From positions 1 to 36,653 of the forward strand of contig WGMF01000042.1 in the NCBI GenBank assembly GCA_016125215.1: DNA of 36,653 bases, read 5' to 3'. Positions within the stretch are counted from its first letter, which is position 1; each line of letters opens with the position of its first letter. The translations under genes were made by a program, and so were the position numbers. This stretch comes from Phycisphaera sp. GTDB lineage: Bacteria > Planctomycetota > Phycisphaerae > Phycisphaerales > Phycisphaeraceae. The notes beneath the pieces are model-generated. The model saw nothing but the letters and a program-made list of their open reading frames with translations, did not search any database and had not been told where the DNA came from. Below, piece by piece: positions 12,283 to 35,691 of this stretch.

Positions 12283-13887
12283 TCAATTGAGTTCGGTGCT
12301 GACCCACGTCGTGTCGCGTCCGAGTGTGACACTTTGTAAGAGGTGCAGCTTCACGAACGAGCCGAGGCGACCGACCAGGGCGACCGCGGTCTTGGCGTCT
12401 TCGGTGAAGAGGTGGAGCACGGGCTGCGTTTGTGAGTCGAAGCGCATCTGTCGCTGGGTGAGCTGCAGGAGGGCAAGGTGTTCGTTGACCCACGAACGCG
12501 CTTCGATGAGGTCGATCACCGCGTCGCGCAGCGAACCCGAGCCGACCTTTCGCAGCAGGTGGAGGGCGCCTTGCTGGTCGAGGATGATCTGCGTCTGCGG
12601 GTGACGCGGGCAGCGAGCCTGCAGGGGGACACTCCCGGGTGCGGAGGTGAGGAACTGAGCCAGGTCGGAGTCGGCGGGATGGGAGTGCGGGTCAATCGGA
12701 TTCGGGGCGGGCGCGTCATTGGGGACCGGCGATGCCATCGCCGGCTTGATGTCTTGAACTTCCGGTGTGACTTCCGGGACCACTTCCGGGGGCGGGGTTA
12801 CTTCCGGGGGCGGGGGTGGGGTTTTTTGTGTGGCGTTGGCAACAGGGGACGCGGTGGTGTTTGCGTTATCACGTTTGCCGAAGACCTTGTCGAACGCCTC
12901 AGCGAATGCGGGGGCTTCGATGGCTTCGTCGAGCACGTCCTGTGCTCTTGCGGTTCGCTGGGTTTCCGCGCGGGGTGTCTGGCTCTGGAAGAGGCTCAGG
13001 ACTTCGGGCCAGTGGTTGTCCGCATTGTCGAACGTGCCCAGGTCTTCACGACCCACGGGGGTCATCTGTCGGAGCGTGCCGACCAGCGCGATGGGCGTGG
13101 CCAGGAAATGGCCCGCGGCGGTGTTGAGTTTGTCCGCGGCACGTTGGGCCGGTTCGCCCTCCGTGCCCATGACCATGACGCCGAGCTTGTGCAATGAGGC
13201 GTTGGTCTGGTCGAGCAGTTGTTTGATGAGTCGGTAGCCCGCCACGACCGCGGCGTCGTCCGCACCGGTGACGAGCGTCCAGCGTGTGACCTGTTTGGCA
13301 ATGCGTTTGGACAGCGCGGAGTCGGGCTCGGAGAGGTGGACGAGCCAGTTGAGCACGGGGTTGTTGCCGTGCGCGAGGATGCGGACCGCCTGGGCCACGG
13401 TTTTGGGGTTGGCTTCACGGATGACCTGGGCCAGCTTGACCTCGCGTACCGGCGCGTCGCTGGCGGTGATGACTTCCATGTCGATGGTCTGGCCGTCGGC
13501 GTGGAGCAGGCCGATCGGCCCGTTCTTTCGTGCGAGGTGGTGTGCGTATTGCGTGAGCCAGGGTGCGCCGAAGCCGGGCAGGTTGCCGAGCACGACCGCT
13601 TCGACGTTCACGGTGGCGTTGCGGGGTTCGCGTCGGACGGGCGGGGCTTCGTCAAGCAAGTCACTGTTGTGCAGGCGGAGCGTGGGGGCCTCTTGAAATT
13701 CGCGCGGGGTTGCGGTGTCACGGGAGGCCTGGGGTCGGGCATACTGGGCGGGCTTGGGAGGCAGGCGCAGCGGCGCGGGGCCTTCGAGCGACGTCGACGA
13801 GAGCGGCGCCGCGGTGCGCGGGTGCGTCCCGGTGAGGAACAGGTCCGCAAGGTCGTCGAGCGTGTTTTTCGTGCGTGACTCGTCCAT
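12283..13887 (-). CDS. Degenerate MinD/FlhG-like protein with proline-rich linker
   Basis: Protein of 534 aa with no assigned function. Residues about 1-90 look disordered. About 90-300 resemble the SIMIBI MinD/FlhG/ParA fold: a strand VVLGNLPGFGAPWLTQYA, then a region (TGADDAAVVAGYRLIKQLL, with following LGVMVMGTEGEPAQRAADKLN and FLATPIALVGTLRQM) like the distal half of FlhG/MinD proteins, where DAY.LIK and a later FL...LG.I occur. The Walker A KGG.GKT is absent, so ATP hydrolysis is unlikely. A Pro-rich linker about 355-420 (PPPPEV/PPPEVVPEV) is encoded by repeated ACTTCCGGGGG motifs, and about 430-534 form a separate helical domain. It lies downstream of the ParA-CBM48 gene on the same strand. 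The relation to MinD/FlhG is my inference. Confidence 0.55.
   Translation of the reverse strand: MDESRTKNTLDDLADLFLTGTHPRTAAPLSSTSLEGPAPLRLPPKPAQYARPQASRDTATPREFQEAPTLRLHNSDLLDEAPPVRREPRNATVNVEAVVLGNLPGFGAPWLTQYAHHLARKNGPIGLLHADGQTIDMEVITASDAPVREVKLAQVIREANPKTVAQAVRILAHGNNPVLNWLVHLSEPDSALSKRIAKQVTRWTLVTGADDAAVVAGYRLIKQLLDQTNASLHKLGVMVMGTEGEPAQRAADKLNTAAGHFLATPIALVGTLRQMTPVGREDLGTFDNADNHWPEVLSLFQSQTPRAETQRTARAQDVLDEAIEAPAFAEAFDKVFGKRDNANTTASPVANATQKTPPPPPEVTPPPEVVPEVTPEVQDIKPAMASPVPNDAPAPNPIDPHSHPADSDLAQFLTSAPGSVPLQARCPRHPQTQIILDQQGALHLLRKVGSGSLRDAVIDLIEARSWVNEHLALLQLTQRQMRFDSQTQPVLHLFTEDAKTAVALVGRLGSFVKLHLLQSVTLGRDTTWVSTELN
12758..12810. repeat. Cluster of ACTTCCGG motifs encoding a PPPEV linker
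   Basis: ACTTCCGGTG at 12758-12767, ACTTCCGGGA at 12770-12779, ACTTCCGGGGG at 12782-12792 and ACTTCCGGGGG at 12800-12810. They have 12-, 12- and 18-bp spacing, so all are in frame. On the coding (minus) strand they give PPEV-type repeats, a different reading frame from that used in pheS. Confidence 0.85.
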
Positions 13888-23605: not shown

Positions 23606-23810
23606 CGGTGTCCCGTGCCGCAGCCAATACGGCGGTCGATGCGGGGGATATGCAAAAGTGTTGCCGAACCGCTGAGCATCCGCTAATCCCCTGTTTTTCG
23701 TGCTTGCTCGGTGGCTGCCCCTTTTCGGACGCATGGGAATTAGGCAGTTGACCCGGCCTGCATATTTTTCGATCACCGGCTTGCCCTACGCCAAAGCGAT
23801 CTATGATTTC

Positions 23811-24692
23811 ATGATGGCCCCGGCAACCGCACAACTCACCGGCAACCCACACGACCCTGTCCCGTCCGACGAACCGATCCGTTGTTGCGATTGCGAATAC
23901 GACCTGCGTGGCCTGCCGCGCGGGGGGGCCTGCCCGGAGTGTGGAAGGAGCGTGGCGTCGTCGGTCGAGCACATCCTCATCAACGACCGTCAGACCACGT
24001 GGGTGCTCACACTGGCGTCGGGTTCGCGGTGGGTCTTCATCGGCATCCTCGTCACCTCGGTGGCGGCGGGGCTGGCGCAGCTCGTCCACGTGTTCGATTC
24101 CGTGCCTGTGACGGTGGTCTATATGCTGGGGGTCGCGTCGCTGCTTCCGCTGGTTGTGGGCATCTGGCGGGTCACCGCTCCGCGCAGTCCAGACGGGGTC
24201 GACGCCGGTGACGGGGCCACGGTGACAAGGGGGCTTGCACGGTATGCGCTGCCTTTGGCGATGGCGGGTTGGCCACTGGCCGCCGTGCGGGTATCTAATC
24301 ATGTGTTATACTTCAACACGGCCCTGATCGTGGCGGACGCGCTCACACTCGTCGGGCTGGTGTGCCTGCTCCTCTACGCACGGACGATCGCCCGGCGGGT
24401 GCCCGACCTGCGCCTGGCCAGGCAGACCACCTGGTGCATGGCGCTGATGGTCGTGGCCTACCTGGTCTCCGCCGTCTTTCGCCAACCGTGGAACGACATG
24501 CTCATCAGGCACCTCCCCGCGATGACGGTCGGCCCGACCCGCACGGATCGGCTGCTCTTTCGCATCGGCACCGAGGCGGTCCTCACCATGATCCTGCTCG
24601 CGGTCTTGTGGGTACTGGCGCTGCTGGTGATGTACCGTGATCGGCTGCGTAAGGCCGCGGCGGTGATCGAACGGCGGAACCAGAACCCGTAA
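23811..24692 (+). CDS. Zinc-ribbon membrane protein (first of a pair)
   Basis: Protein of 293-294 aa (start at ATG 23811 or the next codon). The N-terminus is a compact zinc ribbon, C25/C28 and C41/C44, with the characteristic C..C.YDLRGLP....CPECG spacing, followed by about six hydrophobic segments. This N-terminal motif occurs on many otherwise unrelated membrane proteins in Planctomycetota; I know no function. The open frame extends 37 codons upstream but those residues do not resemble the paralogue, so I trimmed it. The next gene encodes a paralogue with the same layout, 69 bp downstream, so the two may act as a heteromeric pair. Confidence 0.75.
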   Translation: MMAPATAQLTGNPHDPVPSDEPIRCCDCEYDLRGLPRGGACPECGRSVASSVEHILINDRQTTWVLTLASGSRWVFIGILVTSVAAGLAQLVHVFDSVPVTVVYMLGVASLLPLVVGIWRVTAPRSPDGVDAGDGATVTRGLARYALPLAMAGWPLAAVRVSNHVLYFNTALIVADALTLVGLVCLLLYARTIARRVPDLRLARQTTWCMALMVVAYLVSAVFRQPWNDMLIRHLPAMTVGPTRTDRLLFRIGTEAVLTMILLAVLWVLALLVMYRDRLRKAAAVIERRNQNP

Positions 24693-24703: not shown

Positions 24704-24730
24704 CTTGGCCCGACACGGTTGTGGTATAGT
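24704..24730 (+). promoter_or_regulatory. Possible promoter before the second zinc-ribbon gene
   Basis: TTGGCC (24704-24709), a 15-bp spacer and TATAGT (24725-24730), about 30 bp before the start. The -10 box is good but the spacing is short. If real, the second gene can be transcribed independently. Confidence 0.35.
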
Positions 24731-24761
24731 CCCCCGGCACCTCCAGCCGGGATCACTCACC

Positions 24762-25673
24762 ATGTCAGAGCCCTACACGCTGCCCTCCACCGCGGTCGAC
24801 GACGCGGGGTTTATCGTCGATGAAGTCCCCTGCCTGGCGTGCGGGTACAACCTGCGCGGCACAAACCTCAACGGACGCTGCCCCGAGTGTGGCACCGCCG
24901 TCGGACGCTCGGCGCACGGCGACCTGCTGCTCTACTGCGAGCCGACGTGGGTCAGCCAACTGGCAAAGGGGATGAATTTTGTGCTCGTGTCGATCCTCGT
25001 CGGGTTCCTGATCGGGTGCCTGTCCAGCTCGGCGGTGGCTTATTCCGCCTCGCAACACGCTCAGCCGCAGGTCCAGTGGGTCCAGCTCCTGCACCTCGTG
25101 CCCAACATCATCGCGCTGGTCGGGTATTGGCTTCTCACCACGCCCGAGCCGCGGCAGCAGATGACCGAAGCCGGCCTCAGTGCCCGGTCGCTTGCGAGGG
25201 GGTGCCTCGTGGCGGCGCAGGGGCTCGGCGTGATGCAGATCGGCGTGTCGCTGGGTCAGCCCTTCGTGGCACAAATCCTGGCCATGCCCGGCGCCATCCT
25301 TTCGATCGTCGGCCTGGTGGCGCTGCTGGTTTATCTGCGACGCATCGCGCTGCGCATGCCCGACACCAACCTGGCAAGCCAGACCCTGGTCGTGATGTGG
25401 GGCACCGCGGCGCTCTATGCGTTTTTGGTGTTGATCGCCGTGGTGGTTCTGGTGATCGGCGTGAACATCTCACGTGGAAGTCAATCGGGCCAGTTGTCCG
25501 CGGGGGTGGGGGTGATGGCGGCCTTGGGCTGCGTGGTCGGCGTCCTGGCGATCGTGTTCGGCATCTGGGCGCTGGTGCTGGTCTTCTGGTACCGCAAACG
25601 CCTGATGACCGCCTCCAGCCAGGCAAAAGAAACCTGGGCACGCGAGGCCGAGCCCATCACGGTCACGCCCTGA
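24762..25673 (+). CDS. Zinc-ribbon membrane protein (second of a pair)
   Basis: Protein of 303 aa, paralogous in layout to its upstream neighbour: zinc ribbon C24/C27 and C40/C43 (PCLACGYNLRG ... CPECG), then about six hydrophobic helices, ending in a short basic/Ala-rich cytoplasmic tail. Shared features with the neighbour include ARS/TRGLARY- and SLARGCLVAAQ-like helix starts, a LVALLVYLRRIALRMPDTNLASQT segment that matches LVCLLLYARTIARRVPDLRLARQT in the first protein, and a final VLVFWYRKRL/LVMYRDRLRK match. The repeated R(I/V)PD..LA.QT element looks like a family signature. Function unknown. Confidence 0.78.
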   Translation: MSEPYTLPSTAVDDAGFIVDEVPCLACGYNLRGTNLNGRCPECGTAVGRSAHGDLLLYCEPTWVSQLAKGMNFVLVSILVGFLIGCLSSSAVAYSASQHAQPQVQWVQLLHLVPNIIALVGYWLLTTPEPRQQMTEAGLSARSLARGCLVAAQGLGVMQIGVSLGQPFVAQILAMPGAILSIVGLVALLVYLRRIALRMPDTNLASQTLVVMWGTAALYAFLVLIAVVVLVIGVNISRGSQSGQLSAGVGVMAALGCVVGVLAIVFGIWALVLVFWYRKRLMTASSQAKETWAREAEPITVTP

Positions 25674-25686
25674 CGTTATCACACTT

Positions 25687-26070
25687 TCATTTCGGGGGAC
25701 GGTCGGCGGTCTTGCGCAATGCCGCCCGGTAGAGCGCGTCGAACTCCCGCTCGGGCAGGCCCAGCCGATCGGCGAAGTGACACAGGATGATCCGCTCGTT
25801 GTCACCAAGCTTCCCGTCGGCTACCGCCACAGCGAAGAGCGCGGTCATCGTCGCCTTCGGGTCGGTAAGGACGATCTTGAACTGGTCTTCGTAAAAGTCC
25901 TCGTCATTCTTCGCGCGATCGATCATGGCGCTCAGCGAGGCCTTGCCGACGCCGGCGTAATCCGCGATGCGTTCGAGTAGTTTCAGCTCCTGCTCGTCGA
26001 TGTGCTTATCCAGCCCCGCAATACAGCAGGCCGCCCGGAGCACCGCGACGTTGGCCATGGGACTGGGCAT
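25687..26070 (-). CDS. TerB-like protein
   Basis: All-helical protein of 127 aa resembling the TerB (tellurite-resistance associated)/DUF533-like fold. LRAACCIAGLDKHIDEQELKLLERIADYAGV and ALFAVAVADGKLGDNERIILCHFADRLGL are two copies of the family's 'a...aDG.id..E...l..ia..lg' motif with acidic residues suited to metal binding. ATG 26070 has AAAGG upstream at about 8 bp; ATG 26058 is an alternative. It is the last gene of the co-directional DUF3467/HlyD/M50/SecA run, 194 bp after the SecA-like stop, with a GCAGAG-type repeat in between. TerB-like domains often accompany membrane or stress complexes, so a link with the export-like operon is possible but not shown. Confidence 0.75.
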   Translation of the reverse strand: MPSPMANVAVLRAACCIAGLDKHIDEQELKLLERIADYAGVGKASLSAMIDRAKNDEDFYEDQFKIVLTDPKATMTALFAVAVADGKLGDNERIILCHFADRLGLPEREFDALYRAALRKTADRPPK

Positions 26071-26085
26071 GATGGGAACCTTTTT

Positions 26086-26120
26086 ATCACAGAGAGCACA
26101 GAGGACACAGAGAGAAGAAG
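26086..26120. repeat. Single-arm CACAGAG repeat between the SecA-like and TerB-like genes
   Basis: ATCACAGAGAGCACAGAGGA continuing to 26120: three ACAGAG units about 9-10 bp apart, the same family as the arms at 13911-14055, but I see no matching second arm nearby. Confidence 0.7.
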
Positions 26121-26264
26121 TGGCCGAGTGGTCAAGTGGTCCAGTGAAGACTCAGCGACGCAGGTGACAAAGTGTAAATCGGATTTCCCGCAAACGGCAA
26201 ACACGAGTCTGAGATCATCAATCATCAATGGTTTTTCTCTGACATCATCCATCGTCCATTCCCC

Positions 26265-28301
26265 CTAGTCTTCTCTTCCCGCGAAGCCCAGGTACTCTTC
26301 CAGCCAGTCGTCGTGTTTGAGCACGCTCTTGCGTTGACGCAGCGAGATGCGTGAGGCGCGACGCTGGGCCGCGTGGAAGAGCCTGCGCGCCGACGGGCTG
26401 CGCAGCTCGCCGGCGTCGTCAGCCTTGATGCGCCCGAGCATCCACTTGAGCCACTGCCACGCGTAACGCACCACAAGCTCGTCATCCAGACTCACGTACA
26501 CACTCACGCTCCCAGGGTCGCCCTGTCTGGCACATCGGCCAAAGAGCTGTCGGTCGACCCGGCCCGAGTCGTGACGCTCACACGCGATCACGTGCAGGCC
26601 ACCCGCTTCATTCACACTCTTGGCCAGCTTGATGTCCGTGCCGCGGCCGGCCATGTTCGTGGCTACCGTCACCCGGCCCGGCTGCCCCGCCTCCGCGACG
26701 ACCTGCGCCTCCTTTTCGTGATGCACCGCGTTGAGCACCTGATGAGACAAGCCCTGCTCGGTGAGCAGTCGGCTCAGCTGCTCGCTCTGTGCCACGCTGC
26801 GCGTCCCCACGAGCACCGGGCGCTGGGCTTCGTGGACCTTGCGCACCTCCTGGGCCACCGCGTGCCACTTGGTTTGGGCATCGACGAACACGCGGTCTTT
26901 GTTGTAGCTCCGGACGCACGGGCGGTGTGTCGGGATCGTGACGACAGGCAGGTCATACACCTGCCAGAACTCTCTCCACGCCTCGGCCGCGGTGCCCGTC
27001 ATGCCCGCGAGCTTGCGGTACATACGGAAGAACCGCTGGAAGCTCACACGTGCCAAGGTGTCCTTGGGCGCGTTGACCTCGACGCCCTCCTTCACCTCGA
27101 CCGCCTGGTGCAGCCCGTCGCGCCACGTGCGGTCGGGCATCACGCGCCCGGTGTATTCATCGACGATGACGATCTTGCCCTCCTGCACGACGTATTGCCG
27201 ATCCCGCTCGAAGAGGATGAGCGCCGAGAGCGCCTGGCGCACGAGTTCCTCCCGCCGACGTGCGCCCTGCCAGAGGCCCGCCTTGCCCTCGCACAGACCG
27301 TGGACTGTTTCACGGCCGGCGTTCGTCAGTTCAATCTCGCGGTACTTGAAGTCGACCTTGTAGTGTTTGCCGCGTTCGAGTTGGCGGGCCAGTTCCGCGG
27401 CGACACCAAAGGCGTCGGACTGCTCCTTGTTCGTGCCCCCACCCGAAATGATGAGCGGTGTGACCGCTTCGTCGATGAGGATCGAGTCCGCCTCGTCGAC
27501 GATCGCGCATTCGAGGCCACGCATCACAAGCTGCCCACCCGTCAGGCCCCGCGAAAGGCCCGTGACTTGCCTGACGAGTTCGGACGCCAGCGTCTTGGAT
27601 GCCCCCATGACCAGTCGATCACGCAGGAAGTCCGCGGTGACTTCCTTGTTGGTGCAGTAGGTCACGTCGGCAAGGTAGGCGCTGCGGCGTTCGTTGTTCT
27701 TCATCTCGCCCTGCACCGCGGCGACCGACAGGCCGCAGCGCTTGTAGAGCGGAGCCATCCACTGCGCGTCGCGCTGGGCGAGGTAGTCGTTGACGGTGAC
27801 GACGTGGCAGCCGCGCCCGCGCCACCCCGCGATGGCGGCCGGCAGCGTGGCCACGAGCGTCTTGCCCTCGCCGGTTGCCAGTTCGGTGATGCAGCCGGCC
27901 TCGATCGCCGACGCCGCGGCCAGTTGCACCACGTAAGGCTCCATGCCCAGCTCGCGCTTGGCCAATTCACGCACGACGGCAAACGCGCGGTCCACGTCGC
28001 TCTTCTTCTCACGCTCCCGGCAGAACAATTCACGCAAGGAGGCGACTTCTTCGTTCATCCGCGCGTCGGAGAGGTTGACGTATTTTTTGGAGAGTTCCGC
28101 GATGCGTCTGGCGCGGCGCATGTGGATCGACCGGCGGGGCCAGAGCGGAACAAAGTACCCCACCAGCCCGTGCCAGAACGCATCAACGCCCGTGGGTTGC
28201 TTGACACTCACCCCCGAGCGCGACAGCGTCCGCCACAGCCCACTGGGGATCGGTTGCGGCTGCGACACAGTCTGCGAAGTTGGGAGCGATGCGGATGTCA
28301 T
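26265..28301 (-). CDS. SecA-like translocase motor lacking the canonical C-terminal region
   Basis: DEAD-motor ATPase of 678 aa homologous to SecA, the cytoplasmic engine of protein export. Landmarks: Walker A ATGEGKT (142-148), VTVNDYLAQRDAQWM (168-182), Walker B IVDEADSILIDEA (267-279), a shortened preprotein cross-linking domain (about 288-375), DEYTGRVMPDRTWRDGLHQ (381-399), LAGMTGTA (431-438), ATNMAGRGTDIKL (547-559) and RQLFGRCARQGDPGS (584-598). Typical SecA has 800-950 aa. This protein stops about 70 residues after the last motor motif, so the helical wing, most of the scaffold/two-helix finger and the zinc-binding tail are missing. It is therefore a paralogue, not the housekeeping SecA. 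It lies downstream of the M50-HlyD and GAF-HlyD genes, suggesting a dedicated export role. Confidence 0.9.
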   Translation of the reverse strand: MTSASLPTSQTVSQPQPIPSGLWRTLSRSGVSVKQPTGVDAFWHGLVGYFVPLWPRRSIHMRRARRIAELSKKYVNLSDARMNEEVASLRELFCREREKKSDVDRAFAVVRELAKRELGMEPYVVQLAAASAIEAGCITELATGEGKTLVATLPAAIAGWRGRGCHVVTVNDYLAQRDAQWMAPLYKRCGLSVAAVQGEMKNNERRSAYLADVTYCTNKEVTADFLRDRLVMGASKTLASELVRQVTGLSRGLTGGQLVMRGLECAIVDEADSILIDEAVTPLIISGGGTNKEQSDAFGVAAELARQLERGKHYKVDFKYREIELTNAGRETVHGLCEGKAGLWQGARRREELVRQALSALILFERDRQYVVQEGKIVIVDEYTGRVMPDRTWRDGLHQAVEVKEGVEVNAPKDTLARVSFQRFFRMYRKLAGMTGTAAEAWREFWQVYDLPVVTIPTHRPCVRSYNKDRVFVDAQTKWHAVAQEVRKVHEAQRPVLVGTRSVAQSEQLSRLLTEQGLSHQVLNAVHHEKEAQVVAEAGQPGRVTVATNMAGRGTDIKLAKSVNEAGGLHVIACERHDSGRVDRQLFGRCARQGDPGSVSVYVSLDDELVVRYAWQWLKWMLGRIKADDAGELRSPSARRLFHAAQRRASRISLRQRKSVLKHDDWLEEYLGFAGRED

Positions 28302-28326
28302 GGGCGTCCGTTCGTTCTGATACAGA

Positions 28327-28408
28327 AACCGCAGATTGCGCAGAGATACGCAGATTCAGATGAGGGGTGTTTGTATTGAATCTGTGCCATCTGCGAAATC
28401 TGCGGTTA
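28327..28408. repeat. Dyad of GCAGAT repeats between the M50-HlyD and SecA-like genes
   Basis: The left arm 28327-28362 (AACCGCAGATTGCGCAGAG...) and the right arm 28377-28408 (inverse complement with mismatches) can form a long hairpin in the 195-bp gap. A single-arm relative is found after hflX at 34895-34922. Confidence 0.8.
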
Positions 28409-28496
28409 CGGATCGGTACGTTCGATGGAAACACACGTTCCCGATTTCACTTTCACCCTCCCGCCGCAAGCGGCGGGGCTAAATGGTTGCGGAGGG

Positions 28497-30692
28497 TCAG
28501 ATCCTGAATCGGCTCTGGAGTGTCTGCAGGATCGAACGGTACCACTGGACGCCGAGCGGGCGTTGACCCAGGTCGAAGCGCACCACGACGCGCTGGCCGC
28601 TGCGCAGGGCCTTGATCGCTTCGGGGTCGGGGCGGATGTGGACCTCGGTGAAGGGTTCGACAGCGGTCTTTCCGTCCCTGTCGTCCTTGCTCACGGCGAT
28701 GTTCCCGCCGACTCGGTAGCCCAGCGCCGCGGAGGGCAGCTCCGTCTGGCCCGCACGCAGGATTTTTTCTATGCGACCCTTGAAGTGTTCCGTCGGCACG
28801 CCACGCACGCGCAATTCGACCTGTGCCCCCTCATGCAATTCGTGTGCGATGCGAGGCCCTAGCCGTTGGTCCGCCACCGCGCGGATGAAAAGGTCCCCGT
28901 CGCTGGCAACCATGCCCACGGTCTGCCCACGGTCAAGGTACACGCCCTTGCTGCTCTCGATCTGTGGCGAGACCCACAGGCCCTTGAACGGCGCGTGGAT
29001 CGTGAGCGAGGCGAGTTGCTCGTTGAGGTGGCCGAGCTTGGTGTCGAGCGCTTCGAGTTTTTGCCGAAGGCTCTGTTGGAGTGATGGTTCGTCCTGCATC
29101 GCCTGTTGCAGTTCGTAGTAGGTCTTGTCGCGTTCGGAGCGGGCCTGGTCGCGTTGGGCTACGAGCTCGGGGTTGGACGCCACGATGAGGGGCTGACCGT
29201 CCGGCGTGACATAGGACGTGTCGGGCAGGTAGCCCTCGATAAAACCGTTGGCGCCCATGGCGATCATCGCAAAACGCACCGGCTCGACCACGCCCTCGGC
29301 CCGGCCTCGGTCCGGCGCGGGGATCACCGCCAGCCCCAGCACCCCCGCCGTCAACGACGCGACGATCGCCCCGATCGCGCGCGTGCGCACACGGTCGATC
29401 TCGTGGCTGGTCGCCAGGTAGTTGACGAACTTGCCCATCGGCACGACGACCCACCCGACGATCCCCGCAATGGCCATCAAAGCGCCGATAAAGAAAAACT
29501 TGTCTGCGATGAAGAGGATGATGCGGATGCTGATGAAAAAGCGGTAGACCGTCGAGAGCATGGCGTAGATGAGCAACCACACGCGCTCGGTGGGCGTCTG
29601 CGTCCTGTCGATCGCGCGCTTGACCCCGAAGGCGTAGCGCTTGACCAGGTAGTAAAAGTATTCGCTGCTTCGCTGCGCCAGGTTGGGGATCTCGAGCAGG
29701 TCGGAGAGGATGTAATACCCGTCGAACCGCAGCAACGGGTTGGCGTTAAACAGCAGCGTGGAGACGCTGGCAATGAACATGACGTTGAAGGCCACGGCGT
29801 TGACGACCGAGCCCTGCCCCGTGATGGCCCAGACATACGCGGCGATGGCGGCAAAGAAGAGTTCGACGTACATGCCGGCCATGCCCACGACCGCGCGGTG
29901 CCACTTGCTTCGGAAGGCCCAGGCGCTCGAGGCATCGACGTAAGGCACGGGCATGCCGACGAGAAACATGATGCCGATCGTGTGGACCTCACCGCCCGAA
30001 TGCGTGCGATTGCCGAACGTCTTGCACGAAAAGCCGTGCCCCAGTTCGTGGATGGCCTTGATACCGATGAAACTCAGGTAGAGCAAACCCAATCCCTCGG
30101 CGTCCCAGTTGACCATGTCGAGCAGCCCGCCGGCCATCGCGATGCGGTCGGCGTGGGTGACCACCTGGTATAGACCCAAACCCACCACGCACACCCACAG
30201 CGCAAAGCCGATCGGCGAGAAGAACCAGCCGACCCACTTCACCCACCGATCCAGAAAACGGTCGGGGTCCAGGAGCGGGATGCGTGCAAAGAGGATGTTC
30301 ATCAGGTACGAACCGATCTCGCGGTTCACACGCTTGCGGTATCGGTTGAACATGCCCTCGGCGTCGGGGGCCAGCTCGGCCTGGATGAGGTTGGAGGCGT
30401 AAAGCTGTCCGAGCAGTTGGATGACTTCGTTCTGCGTCGGGGCCTGGTCGCCAAGGCGTTCGTTGCACCTGTCCCACACCTGCCCGACGCTGCGCTGGCC
30501 GTCGAGCATGCCGATGAAGTGGTAAGCCGACGGCCCGACGCGGAAGAACGAGTTGTTGGTCGGGTCCTGCACGACGTGGTAGACCTGCCCCCGAAAGTGC
30601 TGGCGGTAGGTCTGCAGCGTCGAGCGCAAGCGCGGCCGAAGGCTCTCGACGCGGTACCACGACTCACTGAATGTCGGTCTTTCGGGGGGCAT
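28497..30692 (-). CDS. PqqD-like / M50 site-2-type protease / HlyD adaptor fusion protein
   Basis: Membrane protein of 731 aa. Residues about 30-108 resemble the PqqD-type winged helix (peptide-binding RRE): FRGQVYHVVQDP, FFRVGPSAYHFIGMLDGQRSV, EVIQLLGQLYASNLI. A polytopic M50 domain follows (about 155-460) with zinc motif HELGH at 215-219 and the second motif NPLLRFDG at 318-325. After a last helix near 440-458, residues about 465-725 are a HlyD-type periplasmic adaptor with coiled coil (508-562) and barrel-sandwich SLTIHAPFKGLWV. ATG 30692 is preferred over the upstream TTG, which lies in a repeat. Related M50-HlyD proteins accompany peptide/RiPP export in other bacteria; here the partner is a SecA-like motor. 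It could cleave and/or hand over an exported substrate. Domains are clear, the role is inference. Confidence 0.85.
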   Translation of the reverse strand: MPPERPTFSESWYRVESLRPRLRSTLQTYRQHFRGQVYHVVQDPTNNSFFRVGPSAYHFIGMLDGQRSVGQVWDRCNERLGDQAPTQNEVIQLLGQLYASNLIQAELAPDAEGMFNRYRKRVNREIGSYLMNILFARIPLLDPDRFLDRWVKWVGWFFSPIGFALWVCVVGLGLYQVVTHADRIAMAGGLLDMVNWDAEGLGLLYLSFIGIKAIHELGHGFSCKTFGNRTHSGGEVHTIGIMFLVGMPVPYVDASSAWAFRSKWHRAVVGMAGMYVELFFAAIAAYVWAITGQGSVVNAVAFNVMFIASVSTLLFNANPLLRFDGYYILSDLLEIPNLAQRSSEYFYYLVKRYAFGVKRAIDRTQTPTERVWLLIYAMLSTVYRFFISIRIILFIADKFFFIGALMAIAGIVGWVVVPMGKFVNYLATSHEIDRVRTRAIGAIVASLTAGVLGLAVIPAPDRGRAEGVVEPVRFAMIAMGANGFIEGYLPDTSYVTPDGQPLIVASNPELVAQRDQARSERDKTYYELQQAMQDEPSLQQSLRQKLEALDTKLGHLNEQLASLTIHAPFKGLWVSPQIESSKGVYLDRGQTVGMVASDGDLFIRAVADQRLGPRIAHELHEGAQVELRVRGVPTEHFKGRIEKILRAGQTELPSAALGYRVGGNIAVSKDDRDGKTAVEPFTEVHIRPDPEAIKALRSGQRVVVRFDLGQRPLGVQWYRSILQTLQSRFRI

Positions 30693-30698
30693 AAGGAT

Positions 30699-30787
30699 CA
30701 GCCGCAAATGAACGCAAATAGAACAGAGAACTATCTGGCACAGGGGATCGGTTTCATTAGCGTTTATTCGCGTTCATTTGCGGCTAA
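30699..30787. repeat. Dyad of GCAAATGAAC repeats between the GAF-HlyD and M50-HlyD genes
   Basis: The left arm starting at 30699 (TCAGCCGCAAATGAACGCAA...) and the right arm 30757-30787 (ending CGTTCATTTGCGGCTAA) are inverse complements over about 25 bp. They fill almost the entire gap between two genes of the operon and touch the next start codon region. Confidence 0.85.
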
Positions 30788-30792
30788 TGAGT

Positions 30793-32706
30793 TCAGATCC
30801 ACAGCTTCATCCGGACCCACGCGATGGCTTTGCGGGTCCACATCCAGGAGTAGAGGCGTTTGCCCAGTGCGATCTTGGCCACGCCCTTCGTGCCGTAGCG
30901 CAGGGTTTCGTCCGGCTGGTCGAGGCGGACGCGCACGTGGAAGACGTTTCGCGTGTCGACGACCTCCGCAACCGGGCTGATGTGCTCGACGGTGAAGGGG
31001 ATGTACCGGCCGGGATCGGCGGCGGTGGCCAGGTCGCCGCGGTCGTTTTCCTTGATGAGCGCGATATCGTCCTCGGCCACGGCGAGCACCGCCCGCTGCT
31101 GTTCCGGGGCGACTTCAAAGAGGACCTCGCCCGTTTTCACCGGCGCGCCGATGCGGGATTCAAGGTCGCCCTTGAGGACCTTGCCGTCGATCGGCGCGGT
31201 GATCTTTGCCTGCGCGATGTGGTGCTCGAGCAATCGGATATTGGCCGCGGCGCCCTCGGCCTGGGCCTGGGCGATCTTGTATTCGCCGGTCTTGCCCTCA
31301 CGCAGCGCCAGGTCGGCCTTGCCCTCGTAGGTGAGCTGCTCCTTCTGGGCGTTGACCAGTTCGTCCCGGAGCTGCGTGGTGTCGAGTTCCGCCATGACGG
31401 TCTGTTTGCCCACGACACTGTCGTTGGGCTCGACGTTGACCACGGCAAGGAAGCCGTCGTACGGCGCGGGGACGACACGCTTGTTGACCGGCTCGATCAC
31501 GAACGGGGCGTCGATGCGGAACGTGCCCTTGGCAAACGTGAGGAACATCACGAGCAGGAAAATCCCGATGGCGGCAAGCTTGGCCCAGGCGTGCTCCTTG
31601 CCCACGAGCATCGACGCTCCGTCCTTGATGCTGTGTGCCACACGCACGCCGATCCACCGGTCGTGCTCGGCCAGTTCCATCAGCCGCGCCGTCGCAAGGT
31701 CGCCGATCAGTCGCAAAGACTGGCACTCCGGCAGCGTGAAGGGCCTGTCGTTGGGACGCTCGAACGTGAGCACGCCCGCCTTGTCCGACCCGACACGCAA
31801 AGGCATGCTCAACAGGGCCATCGGCCCGTAACGGTCGGAGAGGTGCTCGGCGCTTCGGCTGACATAGCTCGCGCCCTCAGGCGGCGGGAAGACGATCTCC
31901 GCGTCCTGGTCGAGGCACTCCTCCATCGTGGCTTCGAGCTCCTGCACGATCCGCATCTTGCGCAGGATTTTTTCCGTGTGGCTCATGGCCATGAGCTTGA
32001 TGTACCGGCCCTTGAGCAAACCGACGCTGACGCGCTCGGAGTTGAAGCGGGTCGCCAGCTCGTTGCACAGCGCCATGCTCGCGCCGCGCATGCGCTGCTG
32101 CGCGTTGAACGACGCGAGCACCTCGACCACCGTCCCCAGCCGACCGAGGTCCGCCTGGCGCTGCTGGAGTGTCAGCCGCATCTCGTAGAGCGCAAGCAAC
32201 GCCGAGGTCATCGACAGAGGCTGCTTGGCACGGGCGACGGCGGTGGTATCTGCGGTCTGGAGCAGGTACATCGCCGCGGCGCTAGGCAGCGAGGTCGAGC
32301 GGATCGGGATGACGACGACGCTGCGTGAGGCGGAGGGTTCGTAGATGCCGTCACTCGACTGCACGACGACGGCGGCCGGCTGCTTGATCTGGATCACGCC
32401 GGGGACAGCCTGGATCGACCGCGCCATCCATTCGGGCAGGGTTTTCTGTGGCTTGCCCTCGGCGTCTTTTGTAGCGGGCACCGCGGGGTAGACGGCGATG
32501 ACCTCGATCTGTTTCTGGTTGTTGGCGGTGACAAACGCGCCGGCCGTCGCCCCGCCGACCTGACACTGGACCGCAAGCAGTTCGAGCAGGAAACGGTCGG
32601 GCGGCCCGTCGAATCGGATCAGGCGGTCGATGATGTCCCCCGGCCCCGCCGGCGAACCTGCGGGGGCCTGCGGGGCCGACGGGTTGACGGTGGTGGATTC
32701 GGGCAT
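30793..32706 (-). CDS. GAF-domain / HlyD-type membrane fusion protein
   Basis: Protein of 637 aa. Residues 1-25 are Pro/Ala-rich. About 30-180 and 195-345 are two cytoplasmic GAF-like regions, the second clearer, with FNSERVSVGLLKGRYIKLMAMSHTEK, MALLSMPLRVGSDKAGVLTFER and the helix LRLIGDLATARLMELAE. One transmembrane helix lies at 375-391 (KLAAIGIFLLVMFLTFA). About 395-625 is the periplasmic HlyD/RND-adaptor part: VVPAPYDGFLAVVNVEPNDSV, a helical hairpin (about 445-510), then KITAPIDGKVLKGDLESRIGAPV and VRLDQPDETLRYGTKGVAKI. A cytoplasmic ligand sensor joined to an envelope adaptor is unusual and suggests that export is gated by a small molecule or partner protein. It is downstream of DUF3467 and upstream of the M50-HlyD gene, both on the same strand. 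Confidence 0.87.
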   Translation of the reverse strand: MPESTTVNPSAPQAPAGSPAGPGDIIDRLIRFDGPPDRFLLELLAVQCQVGGATAGAFVTANNQKQIEVIAVYPAVPATKDAEGKPQKTLPEWMARSIQAVPGVIQIKQPAAVVVQSSDGIYEPSASRSVVVIPIRSTSLPSAAAMYLLQTADTTAVARAKQPLSMTSALLALYEMRLTLQQRQADLGRLGTVVEVLASFNAQQRMRGASMALCNELATRFNSERVSVGLLKGRYIKLMAMSHTEKILRKMRIVQELEATMEECLDQDAEIVFPPPEGASYVSRSAEHLSDRYGPMALLSMPLRVGSDKAGVLTFERPNDRPFTLPECQSLRLIGDLATARLMELAEHDRWIGVRVAHSIKDGASMLVGKEHAWAKLAAIGIFLLVMFLTFAKGTFRIDAPFVIEPVNKRVVPAPYDGFLAVVNVEPNDSVVGKQTVMAELDTTQLRDELVNAQKEQLTYEGKADLALREGKTGEYKIAQAQAEGAAANIRLLEHHIAQAKITAPIDGKVLKGDLESRIGAPVKTGEVLFEVAPEQQRAVLAVAEDDIALIKENDRGDLATAADPGRYIPFTVEHISPVAEVVDTRNVFHVRVRLDQPDETLRYGTKGVAKIALGKRLYSWMWTRKAIAWVRMKLWI

Positions 32707-32762
32707 GGGATGGCCTGTCGCTTGCCGTCCGGGCGGGCTGGGTGTGGGGACCTTACAGGGTG

Positions 32763-33155
32763 TCAGGCCTGCGTCTTGGTCCGCTTGCCGGCGTTGAGTT
32801 CGAGTTCACCGTATTGCGTTTCGTATTGACGCACGAGTTGGCCCAGCAGGATGGCCAGACGCTTGGCAGTGTAGTGGTTCATGATGACGCGGTGGTTGGC
32901 CTGGAAGATGATCTCGGCCTCGGGCTGGTTCTTCTTGTCCTGCTGCGGCTGGCCGGCCTGCTGTTGCACGGGCACGATCTGGTTGAAGCCGAAGTCCACA
33001 ACGACTTCCTCAGCCGAGGAGTTGGAGCGGAAGGCGTTGGAGTAGCTGGTCGTCAGGTTGCGTTCGTCGAAACGGACGCGGACCTGTCGGCCGGTCTGGT
33101 CGGTAGCCTGCTGGGTGATCTGGGGGTCGTGGGCGTGATTGGATTCGCTGACCAT
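32763..33155 (-). CDS. DUF3467 protein
   Basis: Protein of 130 aa of the DUF3467 type: VRVRFDERNLTTSYSNAFRSNSSAEEVVVDFGFNQIVP, then a Gln-rich insert, then EAEIIFQANHRVIMNHYTAKRLAILLGQLVRQYETQYGEL. The Y.N.......EE.V.DFG and R..M....AK.L...L....+.YE..+G elements are the family core. The molecular role of the family is unknown. The start is well supported by AAGGAG 8-9 bp before ATG 33155. It is the first gene of the run GAF-HlyD, M50-HlyD, SecA-like, TerB-like; the 56-bp gap to the next start has no repeat or terminator, consistent with cotranscription. In this context it may be a cytoplasmic partner or chaperone of the export-like complex (inference). Confidence 0.85.
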   Translation of the reverse strand: MVSESNHAHDPQITQQATDQTGRQVRVRFDERNLTTSYSNAFRSNSSAEEVVVDFGFNQIVPVQQQAGQPQQDKKNQPEAEIIFQANHRVIMNHYTAKRLAILLGQLVRQYETQYGELELNAGKRTKTQA

Positions 33156-35082: not shown

Positions 35083-35691
35083 ATGCCAAGTAACCATCCA
35101 CATCAAGAACAATACGTAGGACCTATTTACAGGATCATTAGGAATCAGGATGATAATTATCCATACATCCATTGGTCCTCGCACCGCAACAAGCCGCTCG
35201 ATTGGGAAAAGCTGATTGGCATGTTCATGGGGGAGGTCCCGCTGGATACCGCGTATACCTCGGGAGTGGACATCCACCTGGTCACCAAAGGTCGTACCAT
35301 CGATGTGGTTGACTGTCAGCTTCACCTGCTTATCAGTCAACGTGCCCGAGTCTGTTTAGAATCGCTGGGATTGCCCGGCGTGGCTTTTATTCCCGTCAAG
35401 ATTAATGGTGAGCGGTGGTGGTGTCTGGACGTCGACCGTTACGTTGACGCCTTGGATCGTAATCGCTCCACCATCCTCTATTTTGACGACAGCGATGACA
35501 TTATGGAGGTTTCCAAGTATGTCTTCATCCGCGATCACCTCGCAGACCCCATAATATTTCGTATCTTTGAGAAGCGAATACCGGGTGTGTTTGTCACCGA
35601 GTCCGTGAAGCAGGCGGTGTTGAAAGCAGGTCTGGTGGGATTCTGGTTTATAGACTACGAGAATCCTCCGAAGGGGTATTTGGTTTGCTGA
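35083..35691 (+). CDS. Imm11-like (DUF1629) putative immunity protein
   Basis: Protein of 202 aa. The second half resembles the Imm11/DUF1629 family of immunity proteins for polymorphic toxins: WWCLDVDRYVDALDR, a SKYVFIRDHLADPIIFRIFEKR strand-helix region, then GVFVTESVKQAVLKAGLVGFWF, which matches the family ending 'FvT+.lk..ve.agltG..F'. The first half (YRIIRNQDDNYPYIHWSS) is also as expected. The base composition is visibly less GC-rich than in neighbouring genes, with many A/T-ending codons, suggesting recent transfer. It lies between two 40-bp inverted repeats and just upstream of a toxin fragment. No toxin gene precedes it, so it is an orphan or solitary immunity gene. Family call is from pattern memory. 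Confidence 0.65.
   Translation: MPSNHPHQEQYVGPIYRIIRNQDDNYPYIHWSSHRNKPLDWEKLIGMFMGEVPLDTAYTSGVDIHLVTKGRTIDVVDCQLHLLISQRARVCLESLGLPGVAFIPVKINGERWWCLDVDRYVDALDRNRSTILYFDDSDDIMEVSKYVFIRDHLADPIIFRIFEKRIPGVFVTESVKQAVLKAGLVGFWFIDYENPPKGYLVC

Follow-up and report, generated by a model that had tools for sequence, protein, structure and literature searches.

A short SecA coupled to HlyD-type adaptors in a planctomycete: a probable exporter of giant LEPR-XLL proteins

Introduction

What would a bacterium move with a second, shortened SecA whose gene lies among genes for HlyD-type adaptors? The question is raised by a stretch of DNA from Phycisphaera sp. (Planctomycetota; contig WGMF01000042.1, positions 1 to 36,653; the whole stretch of 36,653 nucleotides is called the window below), in which four co-directional genes on the minus strand (26265-33155) are transcribed in the order DUF3467, GAF-HlyD, PqqD-M50-HlyD and SecA-like, with intergenic gaps of 56, about 100 and 195 bases. 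An initial annotation had taken these genes, perhaps joined by a neighbouring TerB gene, for an undescribed export system of Planctomycetota; all four core genes are present where it placed them, each with support from Pfam.

The kind of gene set is older than that annotation supposed. Kamneva, Poudel and Ward (2015; PMC4452313) reported a SecA_DEAD/HlyD/Peptidase_M50/GAF module in several phyla, proposed SecA_DEAD as the ATPase in place of an ATP-binding cassette (ABC) transporter, and described a possible M50 pore, an occasional OEP protein, and the whole or partial loss of the wing-scaffold domain in the secondary SecA clade; an operon of Methylobacterium extorquens is among those it names. 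The module's broader role is called completely unknown there and no client is named; LEPR and DUF3467 are absent from the article's main text. The window has the same four protein kinds as that module: its SecA is short, lacks the wing and is separate from the canonical SecA, its neighbours are M50/HlyD and GAF/HlyD proteins, and no ABC transporter accompanies them. The locus is thus a member of a known, functionally blank module, and neither novelty nor restriction to Planctomycetota can be upheld, since the SecA-for-ABC idea was already in print and the module also occurs on plasmids of Alphaproteobacteria and, according to PMC4452313, in further phyla. Our additions are the LEPR-XLL clients, DUF3467, the PqqD domain, the conserved protease motifs and a SecA-less branch.

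We consider it likely, reading from sequence, that the unit is a dedicated exporter, energised by SecA and with an HlyD conduit, for giant repeat-rich surface proteins that carry a LEPR-XLL leader. The assignment of LEPR-XLL giant proteins as clients is very probable and draws on two lines of evidence, adjacency and genome co-occurrence. The initial annotation had listed very large surface proteins, beside PEP-CTERM proteins and pseudopilins, as conceivable clients; the data favour them and supply an address tag that it did not name. LEPR-XLL proteins are among the longest in bacteria, and the frames seen in this analysis reach from 9,000 to more than 12,000 residues. The motif is mentioned in PMC10868602 and PMC9611531, and the papers that we found give no exporter assignment for the family (NF012209); we found none in the open-licence literature that links LEPR-XLL to the secondary-SecA module, and the client link appears to be new. 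It makes a module whose role has been called completely unknown since 2015 testable in cultured bacteria.

Giant-protein genes beside the unit

The first lead to a cargo came from a contig of a Phycisphaerae metagenome-assembled genome (L003), where a gene that starts with a LEPR-XLL motif lies beside the unit. We followed it with the LEPR-8K profile (NCBIfam NF012209, 24 positions, cut-off 17 bits) and with a tblastn search of the window's M50-HlyD protein against the plasmid database PLSDB, in which 60 of the 67 matching records were listed. Among these listed matches, 13 records score above 290 bits, all of them Alphaproteobacteria, and the rest reach at most 181 bits. The 13 records yielded 14 loci, NZ_CP085155.1 holding two and a second place in NZ_CP049813.1 being left out.

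In all 14 loci a giant-protein region stands directly upstream of the operon on the same strand, and every one of the 14 N-termini exceeds the LEPR-8K cut-off, at 25.2-34.9 bits. An unbroken frame or annotated coding sequence runs from leader to operon in 11, and in NZ_CP049813.1 and NZ_CP140822.1 the giant gene and the operon overlap by 4 bases (stop/start). The upstream coding sequences measure 38.8 and 38.2 kb in Pseudosulfitobacter, 31.8 kb in Pontibrevibacter, 31.6 kb in Mesorhizobium, 30.2 kb in Rhizobium johnstonii, 26.5 kb in Methylosinus, 24.4 kb in Alisedimentitalea and 12.1 kb in Thalassospira; the upstream frames of Ensifer, Rhizobium WSM1274 and Sinorhizobium have 9028, 10175 and 9027 residues. 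The giant gene is not a single frame in three loci: R. beringeri (two frames), Rhodobacteraceae M382 (several frames across the record start) and Pseudohalocynthiibacter (where it runs to the record end). SecA is found beside M50-HlyD in 13 of the 14.

Of the 51 planctomycete loci whose upstream sequence extends for 3 kb or more, 7 have a giant gene adjoining the unit (L015, L018, L020, L048, L049, L135 and L144); six of the seven genes are over the LEPR-8K cut-off, and that of L020 is recognised by its motif only. A machine shared by several clients would be expected to show such less regular adjacency. In the window itself no LEPR gene adjoins the unit, and the eight LEPR-8K matches of the source genome (E ≤ 0.01) all lie on other contigs, in frames of 1013-2648 residues with the motif at residues 32-57 in the six N-termini that were read. 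We regard these eight frames, on the strength of their motif, as candidate clients.

Conservation of the unit and co-occurrence with the tag

Is the gene set inherited as a whole, and does the tag go with it? We used a panel of 41 genomes (the source genome and 40 relatives) together with 40 fetched planctomycete loci (L012-L051). M50-HlyD occurs in 33 of the 41 genomes (E ≤ 2.1e-78), the other eight having none or, in G001, a weak HlyD-type match. The initial annotation had hung its proposal on the genes occurring together, and a check left it standing: a short SecA (E ≤ 1.6e-100) accompanies M50-HlyD in 32 of its 33 genomes and is absent from all 8 that lack it; the sole exception, G018, has a contig that ends right after an M50-HlyD fragment. 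In the 40 loci a GAF-HlyD homologue lies beside M50-HlyD in 36, the short SecA adjoins M50-HlyD in 25 and a recognisable DUF3467 is present in 15. Since this gene order recurs across planctomycete loci, it is more than chance. The gene set is a conserved unit with a SecA-type ATPase, and secretion, the role first suggested for it, is the most likely one. TerB does not share in this conservation: tblastn finds the gene in 0 of 41 related loci, and we dropped it as a component.

Other genes also recur around the unit. A third small HlyD (about 260-340 residues, often with a hydrophobic N-terminus) is found near it in L013, L015, L016, L020, L055-L057, L060 and others, and TolC-family (OEP) genes stand beside it in L056 and L065. 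SapC-family genes, possibly accessory, lie beside the exporter or the giant gene in three Rhodobacterales plasmid records (L055 13956-14777, L070 2557-3354 and L075 12069-12848; the assignment is by Pfam PF07277, checked in L055).

The tag follows the unit. LEPR-8K (E ≤ 0.005) is present in 26 of the 33 panel genomes with M50-HlyD vs 0 of the 8 without (p 6.7e-5) and, within one family, in 20 of 21 with vs 0 of 4 without (p 4.0e-4). For a wider sample of 156 Planctomycetota genomes, each at least 90% complete, we took M50-HlyD (E ≤ 1e-30) as the marker of the unit, because the short SecA proved unspecific: at E ≤ 1e-90 it matches in 243 of 294 genomes, the canonical SecA of distant classes being caught as well, with many frames near 870-1000 residues. 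With LEPR-8K at E ≤ 0.01, M50-HlyD is found in 17 of the 18 LEPR genomes, compared with 42 of the 156 in the full sample (Fisher p 1.7e-10).

A variant of the tag behaves in the same way. G175 (L130) holds two long frames that begin LEDRTLLS beside the short SecA, and a DNA pattern for LEDRTLL matches in 14 of the 156 genomes, six with 4-15 sites and eight with one site each. All six of the rich genomes, which belong to one genus and a neighbour, have M50-HlyD, and the reversed-pattern control gives 0 in these six. Once the six are added as tag-positive, 21 of 22 tag genomes have M50-HlyD (p 1.9e-13); the variant was taken from G175, one of the six, which is thus not independent. A second pattern, LEDRx[L/M/I]LA, a frequent form of the leader in certain planctomycetes, was uninformative (55 of 156 genomes, 1-4 matches each, on a similar reversed background).

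The leaders share a pattern, a basic stretch and then an LE[P/D/Q/S]RxLLS-like core with no hydrophobic signal peptide. Ahead of the motif the net charge has a median of +4, and the motif itself stands at a median position of 51, a rough figure because the starts were guessed. None of 36 distinct leader regions reaches a hydropathy of 1.9 over 12 residues (maximum 1.8), compared with 25 of 38 third small HlyD proteins from the same loci, and an ordinary Sec signal peptide is therefore unlikely.

Anatomy of the four proteins

The short SecA aligns over residues 63-669 to residues 25-608 of the solved SecA 3jv2. GEGKT, DEADSILIDEA and TNMAGRGTD are retained, as are the preprotein cross-linking domain and the two nucleotide-binding folds, whereas wing, two-helix finger and C-tail are all missing; the borders of the wing and the finger are those established for canonical SecA. 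By these motifs it looks like an intact ATPase. The source genome has one other SecA, canonical, in a 1385-residue frame elsewhere in the genome. As first annotated, neither an ABC exporter nor SecY stands beside the SecA-like gene in the set.

The M50-HlyD protein likely starts at the ATG at 30692 (731 residues), to judge by homologues such as L012. Its Pfam matches, PqqD (E 1.4e-4; 22.5 bits vs a gathering score of 23.4), Peptidase_M50 (E 4.7e-6; 26.6 vs 27.2) and HlyD_D23 (E 4.2e-7), each fall just under the gathering score, and a profile search aligns residues 17-104 with the solved PqqD 3g2b (E 0.004). The AlphaFold2 model (pLDDT 90) has an N-terminal strand-helix domain, long membrane helices and an HlyD-like C-terminal part, for which Foldseek gives MacA, MexA and AcrA as matches (best E 4.6e-14). 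The site-2-protease core that the initial annotation saw, with HELGH and NPLLRFDG, is confirmed: the HExxH and NPxxxxD-type motifs lie in membrane helices of the model, as in a site-2 protease, and all of 47 aligned sequences share H220, E221, H224, N323 and D329. By regular expression, HExxH is present in 54 of 54 homologues and the NPxxxxD-type motif in 53 (the exception is L065).

GAF-HlyD has a GAF region (residues 213-340), one hydrophobic segment and an HlyD adaptor (411-605). DUF3467 is probably a small cytosolic protein; relatives hold the same position in L003, L012, L013, L023 and the alphaproteobacterial plasmids, and the gene is 3' of M50-HlyD in L050, L051, L126 and L127. Its AlphaFold2 model (pLDDT 80) has three strands and a long helix. 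The strand-helix pattern suggested a SecB-like chaperone, a fold that the structure searches neither prove nor exclude: Foldseek finds nothing for the model at E ≤ 0.001 (best 0.45), comparison with VIA-align gives low scores (best Z 3.9, a COMM domain) with no SecB chain among the matches listed, and the sequence has chance-level matches to solved structures (E 0.36 and worse). The features are collected in Table 1.

Table 1. Positions in the window of the gene set, its motifs and its nearest neighbours
Feature	Position	Strand	Support or remark
DUF3467 protein, 130 aa	32763..33155	-	Pfam PF11950 E 6.7e-17; first in set
GAF-HlyD protein, 637 aa	30793..32706	-	Pfam GAF 4.8e-6, HlyD_3 1.5e-12, HlyD_D23 8.2e-10
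Inverted repeat, 24-nt arms, between GAF-HlyD and M50-HlyD	30697..30788	.	Interspersed-repeat copy; not a machine part
PqqD-M50-HlyD protein, 736 aa from TTG	28497..30707	-	Pfam and NCBIfam matches
PqqD-like domain, residues 44-108 of M50-HlyD	30384..30578	-	Pfam PF05402 E 1.4e-4; 3g2b match
HELGH, zinc motif of M50 domain	30036..30050	-	H220, E221, H224 invariant (n=47 aligned)
NPLLRFD, second M50 motif	29721..29741	-	N323, D329 invariant (n=47 aligned)
Short SecA paralogue, 678 aa	26265..28301	-	Pfam SecA_DEAD 1.7e-99, SecA_PP_bind 4.3e-29, P-loop_SecA 1.6e-60
TerB-like protein, 127 aa	25687..26070	-	Pfam PF05099 2e-11; judged outside the system

Proposed mechanism

From this anatomy we derive a sequence of steps by which the unit may work:

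(i) Recognition of the leader would take place in the cytosol, with the PqqD-like domain of M50-HlyD as the likeliest reader. That this domain does read the leader is a proposal that we hold evenly balanced.

(ii) M50-HlyD and GAF-HlyD would form a complex in the inner membrane, in place of an ABC exporter, and the short SecA would feed the chain into it. The motor keeps the SecA clamp domain but not the finger, the part that acts within SecY; whether it pushes the chain straight into the conduit of HlyD parts is, in our estimate, an even question.

(iii) The periplasmic HlyD parts would lead the chain outwards, helped in many relatives by the third small HlyD and sometimes by a TolC-family protein. 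OEP (TolC-family) matches in five frames of the source genome, none of them on the window's contig, suggest that an outer-membrane exit is available.

(iv) The site-2-protease core, invariant in the family, may clip or release the leader; cleavage by M50 could equally be right or wrong.

(v) The GAF domains may gate the system.

If SecA truly works outside SecYEG here, the view of what the SecA motor requires changes.

Alternative explanations and contrary evidence

An accessory route like that of SecA2 is one alternative: the short SecA would hand LEPR proteins to SecYEG, and M50-HlyD and GAF-HlyD would then trim the leader and guide the chain across the periplasm. SecA2 of other bacteria exports proteins without signal peptides through SecYEG, and the unit resembles such systems in having a second SecA and a cargo without a classical signal peptide. 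The preprotein cross-linking domain is kept, the scores against SecA2 models are good, though far under their cut-offs (578.8/1085, 518.9/930, 477.6/725 and 433.8/1100 bits for the NCBIfam models), and the unit has no evident inner-membrane channel besides the M50 helices. Against this, the protein has neither wing nor two-helix finger nor C-tail, the solved SecA2 proteins that it matches are longer (778-786 residues), its unit is tied to HlyD adaptors, and the annotated loci hold no SecY gene; we judge this route unlikely, while giving it some weight.

Type I secretion offers a different account, in which an ABC-driven route exports LEPR-XLL proteins and the unit only processes or regulates, through site-2-protease signalling and GAF sensing. 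Type I systems typically have HlyD domains, and signalling proteins often carry GAF or site-2-protease domains. Like HlyB-HlyD-TolC and LapBCE, the unit combines HlyD-type adaptors (recognised in the window set by Pfam and Foldseek), TolC-family proteins in some loci and very large adhesin-like cargo; unlike them, it has a SecA motor and no ABC ATPase, an N-terminal cargo tag and an intramembrane protease joined to its adaptor. A Vibrio LEPR-XLL protein with an RTX C-terminus and seralysin domains, described in PMC10868602, favours this account and suggests that other routes may exist for such proteins. We regard it as improbable in view of the giant gene adjoining the unit in every plasmid locus, even overlapping it in two, and of the ABC searches: no HlyB/LapB-kind ABC ATPase/permease is in the window set, and the LapB/LssB-type family TIGR03375 (E ≤ 1e-100) matches in 1 of the 41 panel genomes, over its cut-off in none, weaker matches and other ABC families lying outside that search. 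The one match, in G006, is not in the source genome, and G006 has neither the unit nor LEPR at E ≤ 0.005. Most improbable of all, in our view, is that the unit exports small modified peptides of the ribosomally synthesised and post-translationally modified (RiPP) kind and that the giant genes are neighbours by chance. M50-HlyD shares the PqqD-like plus M50 arrangement of the RiPP PqqD/RRE-M50 proteases (RRE, RiPP recognition element; daptide, YydH/LiaK), and the NCBIfam model daptide_HExxH matches its residues 44-427 at E 5.4e-43, under the cut-off (147.6 vs 300 bits). In the window the M50 domain is, unlike in those proteases, fused to HlyD, partnered with SecA and linked to giant proteins, and what recurs beside the unit in the opened loci is no precursor or modifying enzyme but a giant gene with a LEPR leader. 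Proteins of the LEPR-8K family (NF012209) share the N-terminal motif of the proposed clients.

Several observations nonetheless weigh against a SecA-driven exporter for LEPR-XLL proteins, the Vibrio protein among them. The plasmid loci are not 14 independent cases, as they include near-copies (L058/L063, L060/L064 and L061/L062/L073), and genomes of one family are not independent either. The Thalassospira operon (NZ_CP024200.1) is without SecA and has a third HlyD and TolC, and SecA is not adjacent in 15 of the 40 planctomycete loci; in G002, G004, G007, G010, G012, G016 and G017, for example, the short SecA is encoded on a different contig or at a distance, and in L032 the nearby SecA is a canonical one (1237-residue frame). 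Seven of the 33 panel genomes with M50-HlyD are without LEPR at E ≤ 0.005 (G016, G027, G029, G033, G036, G038 and G040). In the phylum sample, 25 of the 42 M50-HlyD genomes are without LEPR at 0.01, four of them carrying LEDRTLL arrays, and G123 has LEPR but no M50-HlyD. Signal peptides, too, were judged from hydropathy on guessed starts. A further point comes from relatives that lack SecA altogether.

The SecA-less branch

Among the weaker PLSDB matches, we opened four plasmid loci with M50-HlyD and no SecA. The expectation that no giant gene would stand beside such an M50-HlyD was overturned, as large Ig-like/VCBS/DUF4347 genes lie upstream in three of the four, and this also counts against the exporter as proposed: SecA-less relatives with a related tag suggest that SecA is not always needed. 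A tag of the form LE[P/A]RxxFDxA occurs near the N-terminus of the large gene, or of a gene overlapping it, in Azospirillum (L146), Eleftheria (L148) and Kosakonia (L149); the three read LEPRFMFDAA, LEARLMFDAA and LEPRMLFDGA, with LEPR-8K giving 13.5 bits, no listed match and 13.3 bits (cut-off 17), so that their resemblance to the LEPR motif is one judged by eye. In Phyllobacterium, the fourth locus, no such motif was seen. A quick-method tree of M50-HlyD joins the four SecA-less relatives in one group with support of 100.

Since three of the four loci carry the tag, the leader seems, as far as the sequences tell, to belong with the adaptor-protease, SecA being an addition in one branch. A broader proposal, which we offer tentatively and with some doubt, is an uncharacterised type of secretion in Planctomycetota and Alphaproteobacteria, with an N-terminal LExR leader that has no signal peptide and is read by PqqD, a finger-less SecA that pushes the chain straight into an HlyD conduit, and a built-in protease that cuts the leader, working without ABC and possibly without SecYEG; the LE[P/A]RxxFDxA branch would use the same adaptor-protease with another energy source.

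Other features of the window

Inverted repeats occupy two intergenic gaps of the gene set (30697-30788 and 28327-28407). The first (GCCGCAAATGAACGCGAATAAACGC) has 49 copies in the genome at ≤3 mismatches, vs 0 for the reversed-pattern control. Further along, a 534-residue frame (12283-13887) has no Pfam match at 0.001. Two adjacent, related-looking membrane proteins (23700-24692 and 24705-25673) begin with a CxxC...CPECG stretch that resembles a zinc ribbon and match nothing in Pfam or NCBIfam; among the loci searched, weak relatives occur only in L048. At 35083-35691, an Imm11-family immunity-type protein (Pfam 2.5e-14) lies beside HflX.

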